A stretch of 64,000 nucleotides of DNA from Norana najaformis (taxonomy: Eukaryota; Annelida; Clitellata; Crassiclitellata; Hormogastridae). Shown one piece after another: positions 8,301 to 52,136 of this stretch. The DNA lies in the NCBI GenBank assembly GCA_964023275.1, contig OZ029927.1:10739726-10803725 (forward strand). Reading direction: 5' to 3'. Position numbers and translations under genes: made by a program. Within the stretch, counting starts at the first letter, position 1. Each line of letters starts with the position of its first letter. The notes under the pieces were generated by a model. That model ran no database searches and was not told where the DNA came from. It was given only the letters and a program-made list of their open reading frames with translations.

Positions 8301-11300
8301 ACCTCTGGTTAAAACCTAAAGCAGGGACAATTAATTTTATCTAAACCTGACCACATAGTTGGGACAAACTGCCTATGGCTTGAAAAATTCAGATATGAGA
8401 ACTCACCCAAAGACACCACCAGAGCCTCCACCCAGATGTCCAACATTTCCTACAGAAATTCACACATTTCTAGTTAGTCCACTGCAAAAAAACTTTAGTA
8501 CATTTTATTTTCTTCTATCTAACAGCCTCCCCTCACACGCTGCACAATCAAAACTATTATTATTAATTATATGTTATTTATGTCAAGCTAAATAACAAAT
8601 TCACCTTAAAAATGAAGGCAGCTGGTAAAAGATAAGTCTTCATTCATTTACAAAAACAAATAATGGAAACAGGTTCCACAAAGCTGGTTTAGTAAATTCA
8701 ATAAATATGGACCAGTGTGTGAAATGGCATGGCAACCTCAATTCTTTTTTTGGAAGGAAGGATCAAACTAGCAGAAGGAAGCCAATTGTTTTATCCGTTA
8801 GGATGAAGCTTGGTTGGAATGCACAAGTCAACAAAATAACTTGATGATAGACCATGAACTGCTGTACATACAATAACAGCAAGTTTAAACTAAGTCTGAG
8901 CTAGAAAAGATCAGCAATGTAATTTTTTATGACTGGAGACCTTGGAGGATTGAATCAAGACAACATTACAAAAATACTTTTCATCATACCTGGAGCTGAC
9001 AGTGTTTGAATTGATGGTACTTGTGAGGCACCAGGTGGGCCACCAGCAGCAGCAATGAAGACAGGTGGTTGTGCCATGGGTACAGGTGATGGTGGAATGT
9101 ATCCTGGTACTTGATTAAATCCTGCTGGCTGCGAAGGGGGCTGGCCATAAACAGGTGGTTGATTGGCTGCAGGTTGGCCATACGGAGGGGGCTGTTGGTT
9201 AACAGGCTGGCCGTAGTTGTGAGGTTGCTGGGCACTGGCTGGAATATAGCCAGGTGGGTGCTGGGCTGCAGGGGGTTGTCCAAGGGGGGCTGCTTGAACA
9301 AGTGGTTGGCCATAGCTTGATGGTTGAGGAGTGGTGGGTGCCTGGCCTGCATAAGCAAACGTCTGCTGTACAGCAGGCTGACCATAAGCTGACGGAGGCT
9401 GCTGGGCAGGTGGTTGCCCATATACTTGAGTCTGTTGACCAGGCTGGACATATGTTGTTGGCTGCTGGAGTCCTGGTTGACCAATGGCAACTGGCTGCTG
9501 TGAAGGTAGTTGCCCATAAACAACAGCCTGTTGGGCCGGTGGCTGGCCATAAACAGACGGTGGTTGGGCAACTGGCTGGCTGTAACCTACAACTACAAGA
9601 TAAGACATAAGATAAGCACACACCAACTTCATTACACACAAGTAATGATTCATCTCTAATCGAATCTAATTTGGAAGCTTCTGTAGCAACATTATTGTAG
9701 TGCACTAGACATCAATCGATGGTCACTTCTTGTCAAAGTCTCTTAGTTTTGTCACTAAATTCGGCCACCATCATTCTGGCACACGTCACCCTCAGAGGCC
9801 CCATCAGTTTAGGGCATCCTGTTGAAACTCTTGCTTTTGTCTATCATAATCTTCTGTAACACTCTTGCCTCTGCCACACTTGCTCTGATCACTTTCTAAC
9901 TTCTGCCACATTCTGGCTCCTATTAACTTCAGGCTTCAGTCACATCTGTCTCCTATTAACCTCAGGCTTCGGTCACATCTGTCTCCTGTCACTCTCAGGT
10001 TCTTTTCACTTCCAGTCGAGTTCCCCCGTACACATTCATATCCAAGTCACACAGGATTAAATTGGATTAAATTTGAACACTCGTTTGACCTGACCATACA
10101 GAAGTGTTTGGAAGTTAAACAAGTCTGACCTGGTTGTCCATAAGACGGTTGGCCATAGGCAGGAGGCTGTTCTGAAGGAGCAGCATAGCCACTGGATGCC
10201 ACTCCATATGGTGATGCAGACACATAAGTTGTCACAGCCGCTCCATAGGCAGCCGGTTGACTATATGTAGACTGACCTAAACGCATTCATCAAGTGTACA
10301 AGTGACTACTGATGTTGCTCTTATCATTAACCAAGAAGTTGATACAGAAAAGAGACTGCATCAATCTGCTTATAACCAAGAAAAATGGACAACTGACATA
10401 TTAACTCAGCATGGCTATGGGTACAGGGTATAAAATGGCTAAAAAATTCACTGGATTGAAAAATCTTTAGACGCAAGATCACAAACTACTACTACAACAT
10501 TCCACGAACAGGACTATTTTACCCTGCAGGCTGCATAGCTAGATAAGGAATTGTCAATTACATATGAAATGCTGAGAATGAAGAACTCCTGCGCACAGAT
10601 GCAAAAGGCTAACACATCACCAATTGAAAAACACGAGAGCAGAACGAAAATCCTACCAGGCGAAGTGTAGGATGACTGACTGTACTCTGGTTGACCATAC
10701 GAACTATGTGGTACTACTGCCTGTGCAAACTGACCCTGATCATAGCTGTAAGCTGTAACTGGCTGTAGATTAATGAAACACAAACAGTACTCTAACCAAT
10801 GCGATTGTAAATATTCTACTAAAGAGTAACACTGGAATGCATGTTGTACACTAACTACATGGAAATGTTTTGTCAGTTAGTCACCACATACTGAACACCA
10901 ACCAAGAAGCATCACAAGCTGTAAGCAATTTGTGAAACTGATGTTGTGATTCAGCCCAAATATCTTGTGACCTACTGACTAATTTTTCAAGAACTAGGTG
11001 ACAGGGCTATAAAACAAGCAAACACAATTTCTTACTTAATGCATAGCTTTTCACCAACTCTTCACAAAACAATTACTCAACAAACTGACTAAGATGGGGT
11101 ACAGTAGGAAGCCATTGCGAAATGAATTAAAATGCTTAATTTGATGCAGTAGTCTTATGGTGACGTCCACTGAAGAACTCCTCAGTCAAAAGTAAGATCA
11201 AGGGCGAATACGGTGTAAACTGTTAACTCTTGGACATTATTTACAACAGATAAAATAAATAAAAAGTAGTCATACAGAATTAGTGCCAATCAAAGTAACA

Positions 11301-17190: not shown

Positions 17191-21434
<4,244 letters not shown>

Positions 21435-22478
21435 TTTAATAGAAAACGAAAAGTGACGGAATAAAACACAACCCTGACAACCGAGCGCCATCTACCAATA
21501 GCCCAACACAAAACCTTCATTTTATAATTAAAGGCTCTTGCGCAACACAATGTCATACCAACATTTGTTAGTAGGTAAATTTCTCAAGAATTTCGTAATC
21601 TCGAGAATTTCTAAAGCGCTACTTTAAATCTAAGCACCAGCTGTATTCACGAGCGCTAGTCAGAGAGGTTGTCCAAAGATGCCATGGGAAGAACAAAGTC
21701 CGGTTGATAGAATACCAGAGAAGGAAATATAATTGTAAATGCACATGTTTTTCTATATCTCGATGAATTTATCGGGTGAGAAGGGGAGTTGTGTTTAGGT
21801 TGATAGAAATGGGAAGGCGCTCACTACAGCATAAAATGTAAAAGTACGCGTTTTTCTATAGCGAAGTAATGTCCTCGACCCTGCTCATTTTTCATTTAGA
21901 CTAGAAGTTAAAGGGTAAAATTTTCACATGTTGTTTCATGAAATTTATGAAGGCTACTGAAAACGTTATTTATGTCAAATGTAAACACTTCGTTGAGCCA
22001 CGTCTCATCTGCTCTTATTATTTCAGAATATTTAGGCCTGAATGTAGTAAACCCTATGTAAACCGATGTATTTTTTAGTTATTTTTAGTTGTACATGCCC
22101 GTAGATTATATTTGCTGGTGTTGTAATCCATTTAACTGTTGTAGCTGCATTGCTTATCCACCATAGGCTGTCTCTCTGTTGTGCGGACTGACCTTTTGGA
22201 TATCGACCTAATAATTGTGGCTTGGTTTTGGTGTGCCATCGGTTGATGCCTTGTGCATTAGACACCGGCGCATTAGAAGTTGCTAATTATTATTAAGGCT
22301 GCTTACTTACTTATTTATCTGTTTAGTTAGAAGATCTCAGAAGCTTTATTGAATTGTCTGGATAGGAAGAGCTCAATAAAACGTGTACAAAGATCATCCG
22401 TTTATTAGAAGAGATATATTCCTAAATCAGTAGAACTAAAAACATAGCCTACAGTTGAAAACAACAAGTTGGTTGAAG
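21435..22478. promoter_or_regulatory. Divergent LRRC47/eIF2A intergenic region
   Basis: The two start codons are 1,044 bases apart and point away from each other. No TATA box stands out. A reversed SINE-like copy lies at about 21597-21725, and short pieces of a second repeat family at about 21733-21785 and 21833-21905. The parts nearest each start codon are repeat free and are the likely core promoters. Shared control is inference from layout only. Confidence 0.5.
21597..21725 (-). repeat. SINE-like repeat, family B
   Basis: Reversed copy with AATTTCTAAAGCGCTA, a CACCAGCT..ATTCAC block and GTCCAAAGATGCCATG. Sister copies are at 23326-23500 and 39556-39770. It lies in the shared LRRC47/eIF2A upstream region. 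Confidence 0.65.
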
Positions 22479-25400: not shown

Positions 25401-28400
25401 ATTTAGTTGTAGCAAATTAGAACCCATTCAGACATTTTTCAGAGGAGAAGGAAAGAAAATTTTTTGAAGAAGAAAGTTTTCCAGTAATAATGGCAAATGG
25501 CTTCAAATTGAGCTTTAAAAGAAAATTCTTTTACTCTTATTTTATTCATTTTTGACTAATGTTCATGTTGTTGAACGAAAAGCTTCAAGAGATACAGCCT
25601 GTTGGCTAACGTACTGGTCTTCAGTTGGCATTCGGGGTGATTTGAGTTCAATTCCTCTGACAAAGAAGAAACAGGAGACAGGACCATGCATTTCAGAGCT
25701 AGAAGTGGACCTTCATTACCCTTGAATAGATCTGAAGACTTCCTTAGCACGTTTGTCATCGAACTTTATTATTAGAAAGAGGAAAATAAGTAAGGACAAA
25801 CTTGCATTGTCAAATATTTGAGAACTTCTGAGGAATGTCACAAGATGTAGATGGATGGTCAAATCACAGTGCAATATTGAGCCTAAGAAGTCAGATACCA
25901 ATGAGCCTTCAGGGCTGGCTATGATGGTAAGCAAGCTGGAACAGACAAGTTTGGCACTTGGACCTGAATGAACTTGAGGAAGTGATAATAGAGCAGACAG
26001 AATCGGCAGCAATTTCCTGCAGCAGAAATGAGAAGTAAGTTCATTTTATTTCTACTGTTTTGTACCATGGAAGTTTGACTTTGATTTTCTTTTCCTTTTG
26101 TGTAGGTGCATTTAGTCAAAAGCTGCACCTTCCAAAGGTGGCAAATTTTAAACTAGCGCAGACCGATTCTCCACCGTACAGTGTGGCTGTCCTTGTACCT
26201 GGCTCAAAGGTAACTATTTTGAAATAAGTAGGACAGAATTGAGTTCAGTTTACCTACTGTCTTATTTACCCTTTATTCTGTAGATCTCTCTGATAATCAC
26301 TGCAGATACCCAAAAGATAATAAATACTATGTAAAGACAGTGGAACTTCTTTATAATGCTCAATTTTTGAGTCATGTCAATGTCTGTGTTATACAGAGGT
26401 TATGTTATGACTGACTTATTCAAAGGGCAAATTAGACTTGTAAGCAATGTTGGTTTCTGTGCATAATTAAATAGGTTACAATTTAACAGTAAGCGTGCAC
26501 TAAAACACGACTGTGATTCATTCTGTATGTGACGCTTTTAACGTCATCTCGTCCTTAATCAGGATTTTTAGCTGTGATAGATGTGATGACCAGCTTTCTT
26601 CCCGATGTTAACTACTTCATGTGGTGCTGGTCTTCAGTGGGCCTACAGCCTTAACAGAAATTTTTTCATGGCTTCTGTTGCTGTAACTTGTAATGCACAT
26701 TTTAACCAGTAACTCTCTGTGAGATGTCTTGCATGAATTCAGCACTGAGTCCTCTGCTACGGGGCATAATCATCATCATCAGTCACCATGGGTTCAGCGC
26801 CCGTAGGTGCTTGATGCGCGCTTCACTATCTTCATCCAATTGTCTCTATCCTGTGCCAGGTGGCTTAGTTGTTGTAAGGAGCTATTACTGCACCAAGAGA
26901 TGATGTCGTCTACCCACTCTCTGTTAGGGCGTCCTCTTCTGTTCTTCCCTTCCATCCTGCCAAACACTATCGTCTTGAGTATTCTGGAGTTATCCATTCG
27001 ACATATATGCCCAAATAATTGCAATTTTCTACGGATTAGTTTTTGGAATAAAGTTGTTCTTGGGCCAATTTGCTTGTATTCGTCATCTTTCTTCGCCAAC
27101 CGATTCTCAGTACCTTCCGATAGCATGTTCTTTCAAATGCCATTACTCTTCTTTCAAGTTCTTTGGTTATTACCCATGTCTCGCATGCATACATGGCCCC
27201 ACTGAACACGCAAGTATCTAGCACCGCCAACTTGGTCTTCAGCATTATCTCTTTGCTTTTCCAGATCTTGTTTAAGGTAGCGAGAGCCGCTTTGGCCTTG
27301 GCAAATCTTGAGTTACTTCTCTCTTGCAACTCAGGTCGTGCGTGAATGTACTTCCCAGATATACGAACTCTTTGACATTTTCGATTCCTTCGCCATCAAT
27401 TATTATCTGCCGGTCGATTGTGTCGCTGCCAAACACCATCGTTTTTGTCTTTGCCGTGTTTACAACCAAGCCGTATGGCTTACTATCTAATACCAATCTC
27501 GTTAATGTTCTTTCTAGCTTCCTGCTACTCCCTTCAATTATATCTATATCATCGGCAAACCTCAGGTTGTTTATTGCTAGACCCTGCACTAAGATTCCTC
27601 CGCCGTCCTCTTTGACGCCATCCATGGCTCTTTCTAAAACTGTAATAAACGCTTCAGGTGATATCGGATCCCCTTGTCTTGTTCCTTTATCAGTCTTGAA
27701 CCAGTCTCCTCGCACATTCTGCAGTCGAACTGCTGCTACCCCGCACTCGTTTATGTTTTCCAGAGCTTTTATCAGCTTTTCACACACCCCATACGACCTC
27801 AAAACTGCCCAAGTTACTTTTTGATCGATGCTATCGAATGCCTTCTGAAAGTCCACAAAGCAGTTGTAGATTTTTTCCCCTTTTCTCCTTGCATAATGCC
27901 AGTGATTAATATTTCCTATGGGTGTTAGTTATAAATATAGTTTGTCTAGGATACAGATAAACAGTATATAATGACCCAGAATATCGAAACCTTAAGCGTT
28001 AAATTTTTTTCTTCTTAGGGCCAGCCTTCATTTGTTAGGCTATTTCAGTATCCAAACTTCAGTGGGCCTACAGCCGCTATTGCCAACAAAAGCTTCTACA
28101 AAGCTGAAAAGGCTGAGCTGATTTGGAACAAGAAAGGTATGCATTCCCATTAAGATGAAATGTTGTTGCCTGTGTTCTTTCTAATTTGGTGTTTGGGTTG
28201 CGTGATGGCTGAGTCGAAGAGCCAGTTGCTGCAGTCAGAATACTAACGCACCATCTGTTGTCATAATCCTATTAATCATCTTCAGTTTTGTCAGTTTGCA
28301 CCTATAAAAATCTTAGCGACCTCTTCAGACTATTTAATCTGAAGCATCTGTACAGTGATTTGCTATTTCTCGTGCATTGTAATGTCATTCCGGAGCATTC

Positions 28401-31400
28401 TTCCACTGAAAATCCAAAATGTTCTGACAGTGACAGATCTGAAAAGAATAGTACAGGGCACAGAAAGCATGGTGGGCCAAATCGTATGGGGTTGGGGTTG
28501 GGTACTAACAGACATCCACATGATTAACTTTCTTTATTCATCTATTTAAAGCACTTGTAACATGCACAGTGTCAGTACACTTGAATCTGAGGCGCGGATG
28601 TATGTTCGCTAGGTGCCAAGATGGAATCATGTAAAAGCCAGGGTGAAGTAGTTAGTCTTAAGAAGTGATTTAAAAGATGATAGGGAGTTTGCAAGTGGAT
28701 GTGGAGTCAAGGATGCATTAGTATTAGTAACTAATGCATTGTTTTGTTTTCAGTATTCATATTGAACTACTGGAACGAGGCATGATTTCCCATAGATTGA
28801 TCAGTTTATACTCCTAACTTAATTTTTTAGTTCCTGAGGGATCATTTCTACTTGGGTAAAGATATTCATATTGTTTGTATTAATTAGTCAAATTGCCCAA
28901 GTTTTAGGTAGACTGAAGAATGCTGATATCACCAGTGTCTCATTTGTTCTCAGCAGAAAATCAGTGACCAATTAATTACCGACCAAGAACAAAGAAGCAC
29001 TATTGCTGCATCAGGCTACTTAGTTGCATTTCTTGTTTGCTTTCAAGGCACTGCAATGCTAATCCTCACTTCAACTGAATCCTCGGATTCCTCGTATTAC
29101 GGCGAACAGGGACTGCATTACATTGACGTCAAAGGCGAAAGCTGTCTTGTTCCTAGAGGTCTGATGTCTTTTTTAAAACTATAGCAATTCTGCTAACAAT
29201 TTTTTGTTTTATTTTCTGTTTTTGCTTTGCTTTCTTTTTTGCTTTTTACGTAATTCTATGTTGGCTTGTGGCAGATTGCTAATGTGGTCTGTTTGCGATC
29301 TAAGTTCAACTTCTGGAACAGCGTGTGAAATTTAAAATTTGTGTTTGATCCATTTAACTGCTAAGGAAAGGTTGTCTGGTTGTTAAATGTTGCCATGTGT
29401 GCACTTAAGCCAGAATATTCTTCAATTCAAGGACCACACTTCAGAGGGCTAATGTTGAAGGAGGCAGAAATGAGCTCCTGTCTTACATTACTTTACTTTA
29501 TTATTTACTTTGCTTTAATTTCAACGGTTTAATTGAATTAAGTGAGTGGTTGCATTTAGAAGCTCATTAAAGTCAGTTGGCTGGCAAGAACCAGAATGTC
29601 AGTCTTGCTTATTTATTTTGGTTTATTTCGTAAGAACTGCAGCAGACATAAGTTTTTAAAATTAGAATCACTTGTATTCCACATTTTCACTGGACAGCAT
29701 TTTCCTTCCTGTGCAACACTGTTGTAATGTTTTCTGTTTTGTTGATTTAGCAAAAGAAGGACCAATATACAATGCTGCTTGGCATCCAGACTCAAAAATA
29801 TTCTGTGTCGTCTATGGTTGTATCCTTTGCTTTGAAAATGGTTGCTTTCTGTAGCATTCAATACAAGAACATTTTGTGACACGTATACTTATGTCAACGG
29901 ACTGACCATACTGATATTGTGTTTTGGCATACTGAATGAGAAATGAACCTAATGCTTTACTATTACAGCTTTTGGAGTGATATTGCATTTATCCTTGGTT
30001 ACATTACTTTGGCAGTTTACGTGATGTCCTTTGGACGGTGTTGTGATATTTGCTGATCAGAATTTTGGTAAAATTCTGGTGCTAGATGTACTGCTGAAAA
30101 TTTCCTGTTGAGCTGATGATTAATCAGTCAGTTTGGTCAAATCAAGCAATTGTAATATTGTGATAATCTTAGAAAATCTGACAGACACAGAATGTGCTTT
30201 TGAGCTTTTTGGATAAATATAAAGTTGCACAATAAATTAATACTTTGCATTTACATGTGTTTTACTGCTTTTGCAATATTTTATTTCATATGATTTTTAA
30301 GGGCATTGTCAACATTTAATTGCACAGAATAGTCTTTCACAACGGTTGTCATAGATATGCCAGCAAAAGCAACATTATACAACATGAAGTGTGACCCGAT
30401 ATTCGATTTTGGAACCGGGCCCAGGAACCTCGTCTACTTCAACCCACAAGGAAACAATATCCTTGCCATGTAACAGTTTCTTATTCTGATTTTCTAATTT
30501 CTAACTTGCTTGTAACAATTGTTTAGGTCTCTGGTCCATTTTGAATGCGTTTTATCGTAGGATTACTGATACTACTAACAGTGAAATCTACGGTTTGTTG
30601 TTATCAATCCATGAAGAAATAGCTGTCTCATTCTGATTATTTATTACTTATTACTGTTAAACCCTTAATTTGTAGTTATCAGTGCATCATCTGAGAGCAT
30701 ATTAAACTTTCCGTAATTTAGTAATGATGTCGATCTGCCATGTTCCTAGAAGTTACCAGTTTCAGTTGTAAAAATTCAACTGTCTGTAATTTACTGTTGT
30801 TGGTGATTCAATAAACTGCCGAATCAGTCAGTCATTCGGTTACCAGCAGACACCTATTAATTCCAGTGTAAAGATTTTGTTATGTATAATGTGAGCACTG
30901 AATGGAGCCCGGTTTACAAGTGTTCATTTGATCAAATATTCCTGGTGTAACATTAGGAAGCTGCATTAACTATTTAACTATGTTCTAACTTGGTGCAGTT
31001 GTATACAACTGCAGTGCTTTAATAATAATGATGATAATGATAATCGTAATAATAATAAGTGTGCCATAGTGTCGGCATATGCACTGTAAAAACAGTTAAT
31101 TAACATATCCAAATGACAATGAAACGTTTATCGGTATTAACGTAATGCATGTTTACCTGCAGAGTTAGTATGTCTGCCATATTTCCTTGACTGTCATTTT
31201 AACTGCTGTGTTTGGCTGGATTCGGCAACCTCCGAGGTAATATGGAATTCTGGGACGTAGCTGGACAGCAGAAGGTGAGCAATCCACAGGCCATCGACTC
31301 TACATACTTTGAGTGGTGTCCAGACGGAGAACATTTCATCACAGCTACAACAACTCCGAGGTTAAGGGTTGGAAACTGGTATGTTGAACAGGTGTCATAT

Positions 31401-33364
31401 CGATGCCTTGAACTAGTGTCTTACCAAACTGGATCCACGTTGTTCACTTTAGTCTTCTTGTTACCTGGACATACCACCCTCTGTTCGGCCACCCATGATC
31501 TCTTGTTCGTTCCTCACATGCGAACTGCTACCGCCCAGTTCAGAAGCTTTGCGTATGTTTGTCCCGCCTGCTGGAAGCATCTCTCTTGAGATGTGTGACT
31601 TGAACTCCTCTCTCTTCCCTTCTCGAGGTTTCACAGGTGTCTGAAGACTGTACTGTTTAACAGTGATTTAACTTGTTCTGGTCAGGAGCGCCTCTGTTTA
31701 TTCTCTAAGAGGTGCTTTATAAATCTTAAATTACAGTTACAGTTACTTCACATTTCTTCAGAGACCGAAGTTCATTGGGTTATCTCTCAGACTTATGAGA
31801 AGTCTGTAGGATTGGAGCATCGTTTCTCAGAATAAATCCGTTGTTTTAAGGTATTGGTTGACTTTCATGAGAAAATCACTGAGCTTTAGGTAATGGTCAG
31901 CCCTCTAGAGGAAATAGTTCTTAGTATATATGAGAAGGTAAACAAATGATTGGCCATTGATTGATTGACATATGATTGGCTTGATTATATTGCATATATT
32001 ACATATGATTGATTGACTGACTGACTGGTGTTGTATGTTTTAGCTATAAGCTGTGGCATTACTCCAAACTGGAACCGTTGAACACATGGCCAGCAGAAGG
32101 AGAGCTGTACGAAGTTCTGTGGCGCCCTTCTCCACCTGGTGTTTACCCTGAACCAGTCATCATCACTGCTGCGAAAGCAACACGTATGGTTCTCAGGTTT
32201 TAACTGTTGCGTTTTTCTCATACCTTTGATAGAGCACCTTTCCAGAGAGCTGATGAGTACAACGTAAATGTGCCATGTCTTTATTTAATTATTTAATTCA
32301 CATATCATGGATTTTAAATCATATTTTGAATCATATTTTGAATCATAAATGTGCCATGTCTTTATTTTTTTACATAAATCATGGATTTTAGATCATATTT
32401 TAAATCATATTTTGAATTATAAATGGGCCACGTCTTTATTTAATTTACATATATCATGGATTTTAAATCATATTTGAATCGGCTTTTCTCTACAGCCTGT
32501 GTTATGTTTAGAAATTTTTCTGTTTATCAGCTAAGACTGAAGCTTATGTACCTCCTGCTTTGAGAAATCAGCCACAGTCAGCATCGGCAAATAAGCCAAA
32601 ATTCCGCGAGGAGTATGAACTGCCATCTAATCGCAAGCAGGAAGAACAGAGTAAGAGAATCGCTGCATTTGGTTTTAAGTAATTCTTTGTTTGCATGGGT
32701 GAACTATCTCTTGAACCGGTGTAGTATTTCTCTTGTTCAGATCGTGGTTGTGGACTTACCACTGAAAAGCATAGGATTTGGTGTTAGGCTTTGATGTGCA
32801 ATCAAATGATGCTTTGTGTATATGGTTATGTTAGATTTGCTGCCCCAGATCTAATCAGTGTGTGTCTTTTTGGATTTGATCAAGCCCCAGTGGACGTACT
32901 TCTTCGTTTGACTGAAGAAATGTGACTTGTTATACTGCGTTAAGTTACGCTACTTTTGGTTATGGTTAGGCTTTTCACGTGGAACTTACAAGGGATATTT
33001 CTTTCACCTGTCTGCAGTAAAATTTGTAAAATCTTTATCAGACCTTTAAAGTCATAGGTTACATTGGGAATGAGCAGAGTTGGGACTTTTGAGAGGGTCA
33101 AAAATGAAAGGCAAGTTTGCTCGAAGCTCTGCTGCATGGGTTTTAAATTACTTTTAATGACTTTCCAATGATTGATTGTAACAAAATGCCACCAATAGAT
33201 GTCATGAAACGTCCCATTTGATAACAATCGTGTAATACTGTTTGAATTTTTTAGAGCCTCCTTCAAAGTCTGCAATCAAGAACAAGAAGAAGAAGGAAGC
33301 CAAGGCAAGGAAGAAGCTTGAACAAGAAAAGCAAGACCAAAATGGAAAAGAATCGGACGATTAA
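22479..33364 (+). CDS. EIF2A: Eukaryotic translation initiation factor 2A, complete, short C-terminus
   Basis: Fourteen exons join in phase: 22479-22515, 23079-23217, 23895-24022, 24738-24840, 24955-25037, 26106-26209, 28019-28136, 29048-29158, 29751-29819, 30355-30456, 31204-31378, 32044-32183, 32531-32650 and 33255-33364, for 512 residues. eIF2A is a WD40 beta-propeller protein that can deliver initiator tRNA to the 40S subunit in a GTP-independent way and acts in non-canonical initiation. Family blocks appear in order: FSPDGSLFAF, NPDPNLQLWNCKTKTLLCE, WCPQWSGDGAICARNVN, PSFVRLFQYPNFSGP, SYYGEQGLHYI, MPAKATLYNMKCDPIFDFG, LAGFGNLRGNMEFWD, WCPDGEHFITATTTPRLRV and YVPPALRN. The start AAGATGG is a strong context. 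The frame ends in a lysine-rich tail and TAA about 70 residues short of the human protein, lacking the last coiled coil. Intron 10 is AT-AC. Intron 8 (GTCTGA) has a weak donor chosen by phase. Confidence 0.95.
23326..23500 (-). repeat. SINE-like repeat, family B, in eIF2A intron 2
   Basis: Reversed copy containing AGGGCACCAGCTTATTCACG and GGTTGCCAGAAGACCAGAGA, both shared almost exactly with 39600-39715. Confidence 0.75.
24087..24335. repeat. SINE-like repeat, family D
   Basis: AATTTATGTAGCACCACCTC followed by AGAGAAACT resembles 45955-46040 (AATTTGTATAGCGCCGC..AGAGAAACT) and 59373-59450 (TTTTTTAGTGCCACGTC..GTGAAACT). It lies in eIF2A intron 3. Confidence 0.5.
25233..25839. repeat. 83-bp near-identical inverted repeat in eIF2A intron 5
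   Basis: The arm at 25233-25315 matches the reverse complement of 25757-25839 with only about five mismatches. Shared blocks include CAAATATTTGACAATGCAA and TCTTTCTAATAATAAAGTT. The arms are about 440 bases apart and would form a long hairpin in the pre-mRNA. Confidence 0.85.
26768..27880 (-). pseudogene. 5'-truncated non-LTR retrotransposon (RTE-like LINE) in eIF2A intron 6
   Basis: The minus strand encodes reverse transcriptase from the first palm motif (VDFQKAFDSIDQ) through GTRQGDPISP, the catalytic FADD and the thumb to a typical C-terminal block with FGHICRM and RRGRPNREWVDDI, stopping near 26794. Frameshifts near 27300 and 27050 break it into three frames. The 5' part, with endonuclease and early RT, is absent beyond about 27880. 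The 3' end closes with a short GATGAT run, as RTE-type elements often do. It lies antisense to eIF2A. Confidence 0.85.
30457..31203 (+). other. U12-type AT-AC intron (eIF2A intron 10)
   Basis: The intron begins ATATCCTT at 30457, the U12 5' splice-site consensus. It ends AC at 31202-31203. A perfect U12 branch-point match, TTCCTTGAC, lies at 31183-31191 with its branch A 13 bases before the end. No AG acceptor exists next to the coding sequence here. Splicing at these sites gives PQGNMLCLAGFGNLRG, which matches the family, whereas GT-AG alternatives do not. The minor spliceosome must therefore act on this transcript. Confidence 0.9.
31390..31745 (+). pseudogene. 3' end of a second L2/CR1-type LINE in eIF2A intron 11
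   Basis: The reading MRTATAQFRSFAYVCPACWK, a stop, then FHRCLKTVLFN matches the same C-terminal block of L2/CR1 reverse transcriptases in decayed form. The copy ends with GTGCTTTATAAATCTTAAA and then ACAGTT repeats, an L2-like tail. Confidence 0.7.
32268..32480. repeat. Three tandem copies of a 75-bp AT-rich unit
   Basis: Units share AATGTGCCATGTCTTTATTT (third copy AATGGGCCACGTC) and ATCATGGATTTTAAATCAT. They lie in eIF2A intron 12. Confidence 0.85.
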
Positions 33365-45954: not shown

Positions 45955-46040
45955 GTGTAATCAGAAATTTGTATAGCGCCGCTTTAAGAGAAACTACTCA
46001 GTCGGGTCTCTGTGCTAGCCTTAAAGATGTTAAATGTCGT
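45955..46040. repeat. SINE-like repeat, family D
   Basis: Carries GTAATCAGAAATTTGTATAG and CGCCGCTTTAAGAGAAACT, also found near 24.1 and 59.4 kb. Confidence 0.5.
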
Positions 46041-46566
46041 TAAGAACAGAACAATCATCCGTTAGCAAGCACAGCTCAGATAATTAAAATAACTAGTCAC
46101 CAGTGACGCTCGAGCAGGCCTACCTACGCGGAGCCATATCAACAGATTCCCATCTAGAGCTGAAAAGTGACAGCATATTCCGAGATCCTGAAGAATGTAA
46201 CATAAAGGAAGAGGAACGACGATGGGCGATGTGATCCGCCGCTGCCGACGGCTCACGGTTGTCTCACTGTCCAGCAGTCCCTAGTAGATGGAAGAGGATG
46301 CCGCATCCAGGAAACCCTCGAACCAACGGATATGCGCAGGACAGGGATTCGTCGCCCGTTGGCCAGTAGGTGGTTGAACTATTCCACGGTTGAAGGTCGG
46401 TTCCGCTCTAAAGACTCTCTTCTCCCTTACCTCCACCGAACCCAAGTTTAGGCCTACCCGGCGTATTGTAAGTAGATCTGTAGGTATGTGGCTTGACTGT
46501 TAAAACTGGAATTCTGTTCTCCTCTGTAGGTGGACCATTCTAATCACAGAAGGTCACGATAACACG

Positions 46567-46640
46567 TAAAATGTAAACGTAAATGTACACGGTTTTCTAA
46601 AGCGACCGTATGACCTCGACCCTGGTCATTTTTCAATGAA
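46567..46640 (-). repeat. SINE-like repeat, family C, truncated
   Basis: Shares TGTAAACGTAAATGTACACG and CCTCGACCCTGGTCATTTTT with the copies near 61.7 and 62.5 kb, then stops. Confidence 0.7.
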
Positions 46641-47215
46641 TTTATCCTTAACATGCAATAAAAACCGTCCGAAGCGCAGTAAATCCGTGTGTTGTAAAGT
46701 AAATATAATTCCGACACGCAAACTCAGCAACAGTATAAGTCCAAACTGCCATAATTATCAATCAAATTTCACGTTTAGACAACATAACTCGTCAAAACGA
46801 CATAAACACAGTCATCAACCGATACAGCCGCGGACATGAGTAGAAATAGCATGAGCTTTGTTGCCTTGATTCAGGTTTGGCGGGCCACATATCCGTTCTC
46901 TCCACGACCCGGGACAAATTGCTTATCTTTGATGCACGCACCTAGACAATACTACGTCGAGGCTTCTAAGTGGCTGGGGTCATGGACACCGTTAGGCTTC
47001 CTCTTGTTCTGCGTCTTCAATTGACTAGGGAAGATCGTAGACCCTTAGGAATAAGTGCATATTTTATCAGCGCTTTAAAACTTTAAATTGCTGATGCTTT
47101 GGTTTTAATTATGCGCATTTGTATGCTAAATCTGCTGCTTCTGCTGCTGCTGCTGCTGTTGCCGCCGTTTTTCAGATATTTCTCCAGATATTTTGACTGT
47201 TTTAGCGAGGAGGGG

Positions 47216-49198
47216 ATGATGACTGTGCCAACGGGAACAGTGCTTCTGATCTTTGTATTGATGTCTTTGTCCCATTCAAGAGCGAGTTTCAGGTAAGCAC
47301 CTTACGTCGTACAACAAATAGATCTGTACTTACATGTACAGTATAATATAGTCTATAAGTCTAAATATTTAGTATATAAATCCATATATAACAAATAGCT
47401 ATGAAATGCCAGTTTTCATCATCGTCACCTACGGGTGTACTGCCTAACAGCCCTGCGGGTAAGCACACCTCGACTAGGCATAATGAAACTCGCCTGTGGA
47501 TGTTATGCCGAGCTTCTTTTGTGAAAGTAATCCAGCCTGTAGACCTGCGTCTACTGATTTCCGGCGTGTTGGACATGGCTGCTATTGGGTCCGTCTCCCT
47601 ATGTCGCCTGAAAAAATCGTATAATTGGCAGCGGACCTTAAAGCAATTTCTTGCCAGTAGCTAAAAATGACTATCATCTCGGCTGGGGTATTGTAATCAA
47701 ATGTTTATTTGGCGCCTTTTATCGACAGCAGCATCGCGAAAAGCTGAATAGCAAGTGACTCCCTCCAATGTCACTACATTGCCCACCTGAAGCACCCCAT
47801 TGTTGTGTTGCTAAGAGCGCTCTTCGATTGTCTCATGGAAATACAAACGTCGTGTAGCTACTGTATTGATGATAACGAAGGGTTTTTATATAGAGCCTAA
47901 AACTTATTTTAATTTTAATCTAAACTAGATTTAATTACTCGGTACACTCAATCTAATTAATCTTAACTTAATCCAGCAGCCGTAGCAACCTCCGTTTTAT
48001 GTGTTCCATCGCTCCGAAGTGAACTGAATTGAATTGAAGTGAATGTCTCTGAAGTGAATTGAACTGAAGTGAATGTGATCTGAAGTGAAATGAATTGAAG
48101 TGAATGTCTTTGAAGTGAATTGAACTGAAGTGAATGTGATCTGAAGTGAAATGAAGTGAAGTGAATGTGCTCTGAATTGAAGTGAAGTGAATGTCTCTGA
48201 AGTGAATTGAATTGAAGTGAATGTCTTTGAAGTGAATTGAACTGAAGTGAATGTGATCTGAAGTGAAATGAATTGAAGTGAATGTGCTTTGAAGTGAATT
48301 ACCGACAACATTGACAAGTGGCTGCATCTTTCGCAGGCCCCTGGATGACGAGGACGTTCAAGAGACTGACTACAGTCGTTTCACAAAGGTCAGAGACCGA
48401 CTCCTGAGTCGTGTCCTCCAGGCGGTCGCAGACATCGAAGGCATTCAAACGATGGACAAACTGGATCGCCATAAAAACATCATTGAGAACTTCAAACGAT
48501 CCGCCAATTCGAGACCAATTAATACAACATACCTGTCTCACCTGCCTAGTAAACGCATTAACACCGGCCTCGGTGCAAATGGATTAACAGGTAAATCAAT
48601 ATAATAATAGCCCTGTACGAGTGCGGCATCCGGCTATATTCAAATAATAATGAACTCTGATGCTATCTGGCGAATGATATGAAAAGAGGCATGCTAGTGC
48701 ACTGCTTCATTTTTACTTCTGCATTTATTAGGCGCCACTCCTAAGTCACTTAGTATCAATCGATGGCGCGGAGCAATTGTGAGTGAAGAACGTGGTCAAG
48801 GTCCCTACACAGTAACCGTCTCGGAAGAGGCTGGAACCCTTACTCTCCGCGTTACAAGTTACAAATAGACTTACTGCAATTAAGATGTAGTTGCATGTGG
48901 TGGTGAAGGCTGGCGCTATCTGGCTAATAATTTGTGGACAAAAACAGGTTGTTTAGAAAATGTCGTATGTAAAGTTCTCTAAATCGAGACAGTGTTGGCG
49001 ATCGCTTTCATACCCCGTAGCTATCGGAAAGCAAGAGAAGATTTTCCCCAGAAGGGACATTATTCAGAACTAGCGCGCCGTTACTCCGCGCGGCAGAGGC
49101 TTTTATGATTAATCTCACACGATATAAAGTAACGTAGGGTAATGTAAACATTTAAAATGTGATCTGACATGATCTATGTATATATGTATGTATGTATG

Positions 49199-49245
<47 letters not shown>

Positions 49246-49839
49246 CCTATGGCAGGATGGCTGAGGAGTGAGAGTCATTTTACAGTTTCCCCTCCATATA
49301 AATGATCTGCCATCCGAATAGCAAAAATCATATGAGTGAGTGGAAGGGGATCAGTTGAGTGGGATACATGCATGCATACATACATACATACATACATACA
49401 TACATACATGCATACATACATACATACATGCATGCATACATGCATACATATATACATACTGACATACATACATGAATGCATGCATACATACATACATATA
49501 TACATGCACATACATACACATACATGCATAATGTACATTCGCCAGCTTCAGTCTGTCCTCAGCTGCTCCGCCCGGATCGTGGCCACCTACCCCTTACCCG
49601 CCTTCGTGTATTATTCATTGAATCATCCCGTTCACACGTGTAGGCTTTGTTTTAACTGGACAGGCCCTGGAGTTTCGCCAGAGCGAAAGGAGAAGGAAGC
49701 GAGTAGCATCCTGGGTGGCCAGATCGAGTGGTTGTTCTCGAGGACCTCCCCAGGGAGAATGAAAATCGACGATGACAACGACGACGAAAACTATTTCGGA
49801 AACCATGTCGACCTGATCGGTAGCAGCATCATCGGATGA
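47216..49839 (+). CDS. Unrecognised small secreted protein, possible peptide precursor
   Basis: Three exons join in matching phase: 47216-47292, 48337-48590 and 49664-49839, all GT-AG, for 168 residues. Residues 1-23 form a signal peptide (hydrophobic core VLLIFVLM, likely cut near SHSRA-SF). Residues about 34-80 look like an amphipathic helix rich in Arg, Asp and Leu. Dibasic KR pairs at 79-80 and 98-99 and RK at 118-119 could release peptides of 17 and 18 residues, but no Gly-Lys-Arg amidation signal is present. There are no cysteines; one NTT sequon lies at 88-90. The C-terminus is acidic (DDDNDDE) and ends GSSIIG. I recognise no family. An upstream in-frame ATG at 47111 with a leucine run could lengthen the N-terminus; a possible acceptor at about 47204 argues for the later start. 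Phase fit over both junctions supports a real gene; the function is unknown. Confidence 0.65.
48019..48300. repeat. Minisatellite of GAAGTGAATT type, unit about 60 bp
   Basis: Copies alternate GAATGTCTCTGAAGTGAATT and GAATGTGATCTGAAGTGAAA. The array ends 36 bases before exon 2 of the secreted-protein gene and lies inside its intron 1. Confidence 0.9.
48750..48860. repeat. SINE-like repeat with GTCCCTACACAGTAA block
   Basis: GAGCAATTGTGAGTGAAGAA and GGTCAAGGTCCCTACACAGT are shared with 18820-18875 (GAGCAACTGTGAGTGAAGGA, CTCAAGGTCCCTACACAGT). It lies in intron 2 of the secreted-protein gene. Confidence 0.6.
49175..49530. repeat. TATG, TA and CATA microsatellites
   Basis: TATG and TA runs at 49180-49243 and a CATA array at 49366-49525, all in intron 2 of the secreted-protein gene. 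TATG and CATA are reverse complements, so the two arrays can pair. Confidence 0.95.
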
Positions 49840-50044: not shown

Positions 50045-50073
50045 GAATCTCTCTCTGTCTCTCTTTCTGTCTG

Positions 50074-50108
<35 letters not shown>

Positions 50109-50170
50109 GTCTTTCTCTCTGTCTTTCTCTTTCTGTTTTTTCTCTCTCTGTCTTTCTCTCTCTCTCTCTG

Positions 50171-50201
<31 letters not shown>

Positions 50202-50225
50202 GTCTTTCTTTCTCTTTCTCTCTTT
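50045..50225. repeat. CT-rich tract with CTGTC units
   Basis: An almost pure pyrimidine run of TCTCTCTGTC-like units. Frames across it on either strand are artefacts. Confidence 0.95.
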
Positions 50226-50766
50226 TACTGTTTTCAACTGTTTTAGTTTTCCTCCCAGTGTTACCTTGGACTTGTCTACTTCGCAAAATCTGGGGATAAC
50301 CCTCACCCAAATTAGTTTGGAGCAACTCAGTGGCGTGCCCCAACTCCAATGGGGTACGGATTAACCCCTAGATCCGCCCTCGGGTCTTTTTAATTAGTAA
50401 TTACCGGCAAAGGATTTATTTCTCAGCGCAGAGCATTTTACACTTAAAATCTAAATGTTAATAGATGGAGCCACTTCAAGAAACTTCCATTTACTTAGCT
50501 TACACAAAATGGCGCTGATTAAATGCCGATTGCAATACATTACAACACAGAAAAATTCTTTTAAAAACTATTTTTGAAAAAGCAGTTAGCAATACAATAC
50601 AATACATTTTTCTGTTAATGAAATCACTTTCTGCATCCGCAGTGGGGTAGTCGGAATAACAAAGGTATAGGTGCTTCCTGTTTAGAAACAGTCGTGTTAT
50701 AAGCGTCAGTAAGCAAGCACTCGACCTGCGTTACGAGATGAGGTGACGCTGCAATTATCTATTAGT

Positions 50767-51619: not shown

Positions 51620-51879
51620 CTACTCAGTGCAGACGATGTCATCGAGCGTGGACTCGACACGGTCGAGTGACGGCAGGTGGAAACAGTCGGCGCGCAAGTA
51701 CTCGGTTGCCTTCCTCCTGCGCTTCAGCAGAGTCTGACGCCAGAGGAGGCGCGATCTCTGTCGGTGCCAGAAACAGATGGCCACGATGATGACCAGAATG
51801 GACACGAGAATGACCACCCCGATGACCATCAGGACGTAGTTGACCGCACTGTAGACCACAGGACCATAGTACAGATCAC
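51620..51879 (-). CDS. Last exon of an unidentified single-pass membrane protein
   Basis: An exon beginning after AACAG at 51880 reads 86 codons in one frame to TAG at 51620-51622. It encodes a short outer stretch (DLYYGPVVYSAVNY), a clear transmembrane helix of about 23 residues (VLMVIGVVILVSILVIIVAICFW), then a basic stop-transfer run (HRQRSR and KRRRK) and an acidic tail ending DDIVCTE. Basic residues on the C-terminal side suggest a type I cytoplasmic tail. Third codon positions are much richer in G and C than the surroundings, as in coding DNA. Upstream exons should lie at higher coordinates, but none could be joined with confidence: the first base of the split codon is missing and the candidates near 52594 and 53220 have stops or the wrong phase. 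The family is not recognised. Confidence 0.6.
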
Positions 51880-52136
51880 CTGTTCAACGAAAACTCATTA
51901 ATCCAATCAAATCTTTTCTGAAAATTTCTATACCGCCGTTGAAACAATTTCACTGTTAGTCCGACACTTTGTAAGCACATCTGTATGTATGTATATATGC
52001 ATGTATGCAAGTATGCATGTATAATATGCATGCATGTATGTATGTATGTATCTATGTATGTATGTATATGCTATTGTATGGTACTTAAAAGGCACTATAG
52101 TTGTGTTCTGATACACATACATGCATATCTAATCTA

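Follow-up and report, generated by a model that had tools for sequence, protein, structure and literature searches.

A probable three-exon gene for an unrecognised, putatively secreted protein and candidate peptide precursor on contig OZ029927.1

Gene model, splice sites and codon choice

The window analysed here is a whole 64-kb stretch of genomic DNA (assembly GCA_964023275.1, contig OZ029927.1, positions 10,739,726 to 10,803,725 of the forward strand), and all positions are counted from its first letter. Our subject is a candidate gene on the forward strand between 47216 and 49839, for which a preliminary description, made from the sequence alone, had proposed three in-phase exons. This model is borne out. 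Spliced together, the exons (Table 1) give 507 nucleotides that translate into 168 residues and a stop codon, with both junctions in frame. The intron boundaries are GT/AG throughout; the introns start with GTAAGC and GTAAAT, end with GCAG and ACAG and are of phase 2 and phase 1, respectively. The candidate is very probably a real protein-coding gene. Three lines of evidence speak for an authentic gene with a secreted product, namely strong splice sites, an exon chain that has no equal elsewhere in the window, and the codons chosen in exons 2 and 3.

Every GT and AG site of the window, on either strand, was scored with standard splice weights. The four sites of the model rank 5/7540, 49/7747, 54/7540 and 89/7747, which places them among the best-scoring 0.07% to 1.15% of GT or AG sites in the window. 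When both strands were searched for chains of three exons with at least 160 codons and at least 4.5 bits at each site, the candidate was the sole chain returned, reported with its most upstream ATG (47123) and 199 codons; the threshold was chosen after the observed scores were known, the lowest observed site scoring 4.58. None of 400 shuffled versions of the window (dinucleotides preserved, one strand each) yields such a chain. As control DNA we used both strands of 202,640 bp from the same genome, made up of 40 kb on each side and 30 loci of G-protein-coupled receptors (GPCRs). At 4.5 bits the control contains four chains at two loci (L047 and L054), both of which overlap the matched GPCR stretch on the same strand.

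The training set for synonymous codon usage comprised 10,880 codons from the GPCR-matched parts of the 30 loci, and the null was drawn from non-coding DNA in the vicinity of the candidate (2,807 bases, GC 0.418). Exon 3 scores 18.6 against a null of -22.7 +/- 8.0 (0/4000 reach it), and exon 2 scores -3.3 against -40.6 +/- 11.0 (P 0.0003). Among the six frames, the proposed one scores highest in both exons. Fully GPCR-like codons would lead to expected scores of 21.1 +/- 7.0 for exon 3, 35.8 +/- 9.1 for exon 2 and 11.7 +/- 5.1 for exon 1. By codon choice, exon 3 thus looks fully coding, exon 2 half-way and exon 1 not at all.

Table 1. Features of the candidate gene, its product and its surroundings (window positions)
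Feature	Position	Strand	Remarks
Alternative upstream starts	47111..47215	+	ATG 47111, ATG 47123, CTG-repeat poly-leucine run; cysteines added
Exon 1, coding part	47216..47292	+	Start codon (ATGATG), signal-like stretch (residues 1-23), beginning of the mature chain
Donor of exon 1	after 47292	+	CAG/GTAAGC; rank 5/7540
Intron 1	47293..48336	+	Tandem satellite at about 48015-48298, ending about 40 bases 5' of the acceptor
Exon 2	48337..48590	+	Bulk of the mature N-terminal segment; carries both KR sites
KR, residues 79-80	48494..48499	+	Candidate convertase site following F; amidation Gly absent
Residues 81-97	48500..48550	+	17-residue interval holding the protein's sole N-X-T sequon (residue 88)
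KR, residues 98-99	48551..48556	+	Candidate convertase site; preceded by S
Intron 2	48591..49663	+	TA/TATG and TACA simple-repeat tracts, about 49164-49554
Exon 3	49664..49839	+	C-terminal 57 residues; stop codon 49837-49839
RK, residues 118-119	49684..49689	+	Inside R-K-E-K; less strong convertase candidate, following E
Acidic run DDDNDDE, residues 146-152, then N-Y-F	49768..49788	+	Coded by a GAC/GAT/AAC/GAA triplet run
CT tract	about 50046-50230		Downstream flank; from the direct-repeat search
LRR gene	20400-21491	-	Beside the eIF2A gene
eIF2A gene exon	31203-31586	+	Pfam eIF2A, E 6.9e-20
Open frame with a single transmembrane segment and a basic tail	51623-51883	-	No Pfam match over the cut-off

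The encoded protein and the search for relatives

By eye, the translation carries a hydrophobic run, TVLLIFVLM, near the N terminus, and the mature chain has no second hydrophobic segment. The (-3,-1) rule puts signal cleavage after residue 23 (S-R-A/S), which would leave a mature chain of 145 residues (16.3 kDa, isoelectric point (pI) 5.62, grand average of hydropathy (GRAVY) -0.73) with a tail rich in D, E and N. The signal peptide and 145-residue chain of the preliminary description are thus reproduced as far as the length given by this rule; the signal sequence itself is recognised by eye, and its start is contested by upstream ATGs. The translation also confirms dibasic positions at 79, 98 and 118, the intervals of 17 and 18 residues between them and the acidic tail, in which the run at 146-152 partly looks like a short triplet repeat.

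No known family had been recognised in the protein, and our searches agree. Pfam gave no match at E up to 10, PDB sequences gave recA only (three entries, E 1.8 to 6.7) and no hormone, and six exact short peptide patterns found no relative in the prokaryote and viral genome collections. Five protein fragments had no match in any of 5.39 million paper texts, and fragments of the protein had none in PMC5996578. The protein is not described in the passages seen of PMC7224569, PMC7179676, PMC10148640, PMC12604039, PMC12403961, PMC6425005, PMC8557429 and PMC8398477. In its own genome (608 Mb, 17 contigs; best candidates only scored), the protein hit no sequence but that of its three exons at E up to 10, with no paralog, and the DNA of exon 2 matched nothing besides itself.

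The helical hormones of class B1 receptors (DH44/ELH/CRF and PTH) resemble the candidate in having a long helix-prone segment that ends before a KR. DH44/ELH/CRF hormones carry an amidation signal, which the candidate lacks. In local alignments with 12 hormone peptides, the best z values were 3.2 for PTH(1-34) (0.010 of shuffles reach it) and 2.5 for DH44 (0.020), the other 10 lying at or below 0.5. The two higher values are not significant after 12 comparisons and, with no hormone among the PDB sequences and no Pfam match, sequence similarity to DH44, ELH, CRF or PTH is rejected. The insect parathyroid hormone (iPTH)/PXXXamide precursor, as described in the passages of PMC7224569, is also short, releases one mature peptide after a KR site and reaches the spiralians, PXXXamide having been described in a cuttlefish. 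Its C-terminal G-X-X amidation and cleavage signal is strictly conserved according to the same passages (PMC7224569), and since no Gly precedes any basic pair of the candidate, this identity is rejected.

As a separate observation, locus L030 (G000:C9, about 5704153) holds an FMRFamide-type precursor in one open frame (positions 829-1782 of the locus, +), which encodes FMRFG three times and FLRFG once, besides degenerate copies (RLTRFSR, KKFIGFRK). The FMRF-G/FLRF-G pattern is known from spiralian FMRFamide precursors, for which the copy number at L030 is low.

Genomic surroundings

As far as seen, the candidate is intergenic, lying between the eIF2A and LRR genes and the open frame at 51623-51883, probably the final exon of a gene for a membrane protein, converging on the candidate. 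Ten selected frames of the window were scanned against Pfam. Six direct-repeat families (units of 1-3 bases are excluded from this search) were found between 46500 and 50700, all of them in introns or the downstream flank and none in exons. Inverted pairs number 51, and the 25 longest are all situated in intron 2. The GC content of the window is about 34-49% in 2-kb steps.

Further from the candidate, an extended open frame rich in P and Q (8958-9665, -) contains YGQP units in repetition and has no match in Pfam; it resembles a low-complexity exon from a FET-like, RNA-binding gene. A reverse transcriptase fragment (27275-27928, -; RVT_1, E 5.8e-17) belongs, by its look, to an element lacking long terminal repeats (non-LTR element). 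At the level of the genome, CCCTAA arrays are present at 6/17 contig starts read (3 kb each); insects usually have a TTAGG telomere repeat. An insect origin, and with it an insect peptide such as fliktin, is disfavoured by these arrays, and the precursor at L030 was a second reason to drop that origin.

Possible peptide precursor or secreted cargo

The exon structure and coding character of the gene are supported by computation, and we infer that its product is secreted. Our tentative reading, to which we would give somewhat less than an even chance, is that of a processed peptide precursor (prohormone). A real single-copy three-exon gene would encode a cysteine-free protein, which a signal peptide at its N terminus would direct into the secretory pathway; once this signal had been removed behind residue 23, the protein would be handled there as a pro-protein of the regulated branch. 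A prohormone convertase would cut after KR 79-80 and KR 98-99, and a carboxypeptidase would trim the basic residues. The predicted products are a peptide of some 55 residues (24-78), acidic and prone to form a helix, a non-amidated peptide of 17 residues from the interval between the KR sites, and a C-terminal piece with the acidic tail. Calculated average masses without modification are 6538.2 Da for residues 24-78, 1858.0 Da for 81-97 and 1653.8 Da for 100-117. A more specific version, in which a lineage-restricted hormone precursor supplies the non-amidated 55-residue helical and 17-residue peptides to an orphan receptor of the clade, appears rather unlikely.

Several properties of the protein weigh against processing into peptides. 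The mature chain contains three basic pairs, compared with 2.3 expected in shuffled chains, and a fraction of 0.42 of the shuffles has at least three; for KR/RR pairs, the numbers are two observed and 1.5 expected. The best helical moment over 18 residues is 0.564 against a shuffled mean of 0.514, and 0.25 of the shuffles reach it, so that the amphipathic helix named in the preliminary description does not rise above shuffle level. Since basic pairs and helix are what composition alone gives, the argument for a peptide precursor is weak. In addition, none of the three basic pairs is preceded by Gly (F, S and E precede), and no amidated product is therefore predicted. No repeated peptide was seen by eye in the translation, and the 168 residues contain no cysteine pair. 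Of the secreted peptide precursor originally proposed, the unrecognised secreted-protein gene is supported by the splice, chain and codon evidence, and the precursor step leans on basic pairs and a helix that are at the level of composition. What is left for a prohormone is the signal peptide, recognised by eye, the pair of intact KR sites flanking the 17-residue interval, the size of the protein and the lack of known domains, and a secreted cargo protein would fit these about equally.

Orphan neuropeptide-like precursors offer a close parallel, drawn from their descriptions. Those named in the passages seen are fliktin, Carausius NPLP and hansolin in insects, and the lineage-specific LKFL, ND peptide and AxxxDF in spiralians (PMC12604039, PMC10148640, PMC8557429). 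Like the candidate, they are described there as small, secreted and proposed from sequence, and some are lineage-restricted. They differ in having transcripts and, in several cases, peptides seen by mass spectrometry, whereas the candidate is known from genome sequence alone.

An alternative that we consider quite possible, though short of probable, is that the gene encodes a secreted protein which is not a precursor, that is, an extracellular, granule or gland protein that is left unprocessed or is cleaved incidentally. It could be a granin-like acidic cargo or a protein of matrix, mucus or reproductive fluid, and fast evolution would account for its having no recognisable relatives. Splice sites, chain and codons serve this explanation equally well, and the rate of basic pairs predicted by composition, the long hydrophilic mature chain with its D/E/N-rich tail and the missing amidation signal all agree with it. 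Granins (chromogranins, secretogranins and proSAAS) are acidic, hydrophilic cargo proteins with basic pairs, properties they share with the candidate; the candidate differs in its lack of a Pfam match and in a pI that is less acidic than is typical for granins. The two intact KR pairs, with a peptide-sized interval between them, argue against a non-precursor, as does the absence of any Pfam family at E up to 10.

It is improbable that the gene model is itself a product of chance or mis-assembly, in which separate open pieces, for example a real exon of another transcript, have been joined by coincidence. The observations that weigh in this direction, and hence against a real gene, concern exon 1 in particular. 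Its 25 codons score -10.4 against a null of -13.1 +/- 6.4 (P 0.33) and lend no support, its proposed frame is the lowest of six (-0.415 per codon), and it adjoins a CTG repeat and other in-frame ATGs. Exon 2 falls far below GPCR-like usage, and its lead over the next frame is narrow (-0.040 versus -0.072 per codon). A cruder ranking, for which the LRR and eIF2A frames nearby supplied 423 training codons, too few to decide, placed exon 2 at 100/391 among open 84-codon stretches, which is no support; the frames of exons 2 and 3 were still the best of six. A second such ranking, trained on 16 of the 30 GPCR loci, was weak (36/191). Because the GPCR stretches (L031-L060) are strongly GC-rich at third codon positions (0.59-0.87), which the LRR gene of the window is not, and because this surely coding gene is only weakly biased in the codon test (P 0.0047), we regard the test as supportive, not decisive.

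Laxer thresholds also bring up further chains in the window, two on the forward and one on the reverse strand at 3.5 bits, and five and seven, respectively, at 3.0 bits; those on the forward strand all use exons 1 and 2 of the candidate. Control DNA yields ten chains at six loci at 3.5 bits, and its four chains at 4.5 bits, both loci on GPCR stretches, count on the same side. No AATAAA or ATTAAA was found within about 670 bases 3' of the stop codon, and TATA[AT]A is absent from positions 46000 to 47216. Coincidence is nevertheless hard to reconcile with four strong in-phase sites, with the 0/400 shuffles and with the codon bias of both exon 2 and exon 3 in the proposed frame.

Highly improbable, in our view, is a larger or differently started gene, beginning at 47111, at 47123 or in an unseen 5' exon, whose product would have a double hydrophobic N terminus and cysteines and would either be anchored in a membrane or leave the cell in another way. 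Upstream, the frame of exon 1 stays open to 47087, with in-frame ATGs at 47111 and 47123, and ATG 47111 has an A at -3 (read from the sequence), all of which speaks for such a start; against it, the segment upstream is a CTG simple repeat, and two hydrophobic runs in succession at an N terminus would be unusual. The protein had been called cysteine-free, which is correct for the start at 47216 and incorrect for 47111 and 47123, where cysteines are added. The CTG repeat (47131-47170, +), a short way 5' of the proposed start, encodes poly-leucine in the frame of exon 1, and if an upstream ATG were used, its length could alter the N terminus. A transposon or repeat-derived frame, or a multigene repeat, was also considered and looks unlikely, as the best candidates scored in the own genome gave self matches only.

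What the analysis of this candidate precursor gains is a gene model with ranked splice sites that is open to testing; the argument from dibasic sites carries no weight by itself. The gene model is good; as a discovery it is of an ordinary kind until its expression, its homologs or its peptides can be demonstrated. If the gene is not expressed and its product not cut as proposed, it would be an ordinary orphan gene for a secreted protein. Many neuropeptides and receptors of spiralians are still unpaired, according to the passages of PMC8557429. Should the candidate prove to be expressed and processed in the proposed way, it would represent a further, hitherto unrecognised secreted signal of an animal that is probably a spiralian.
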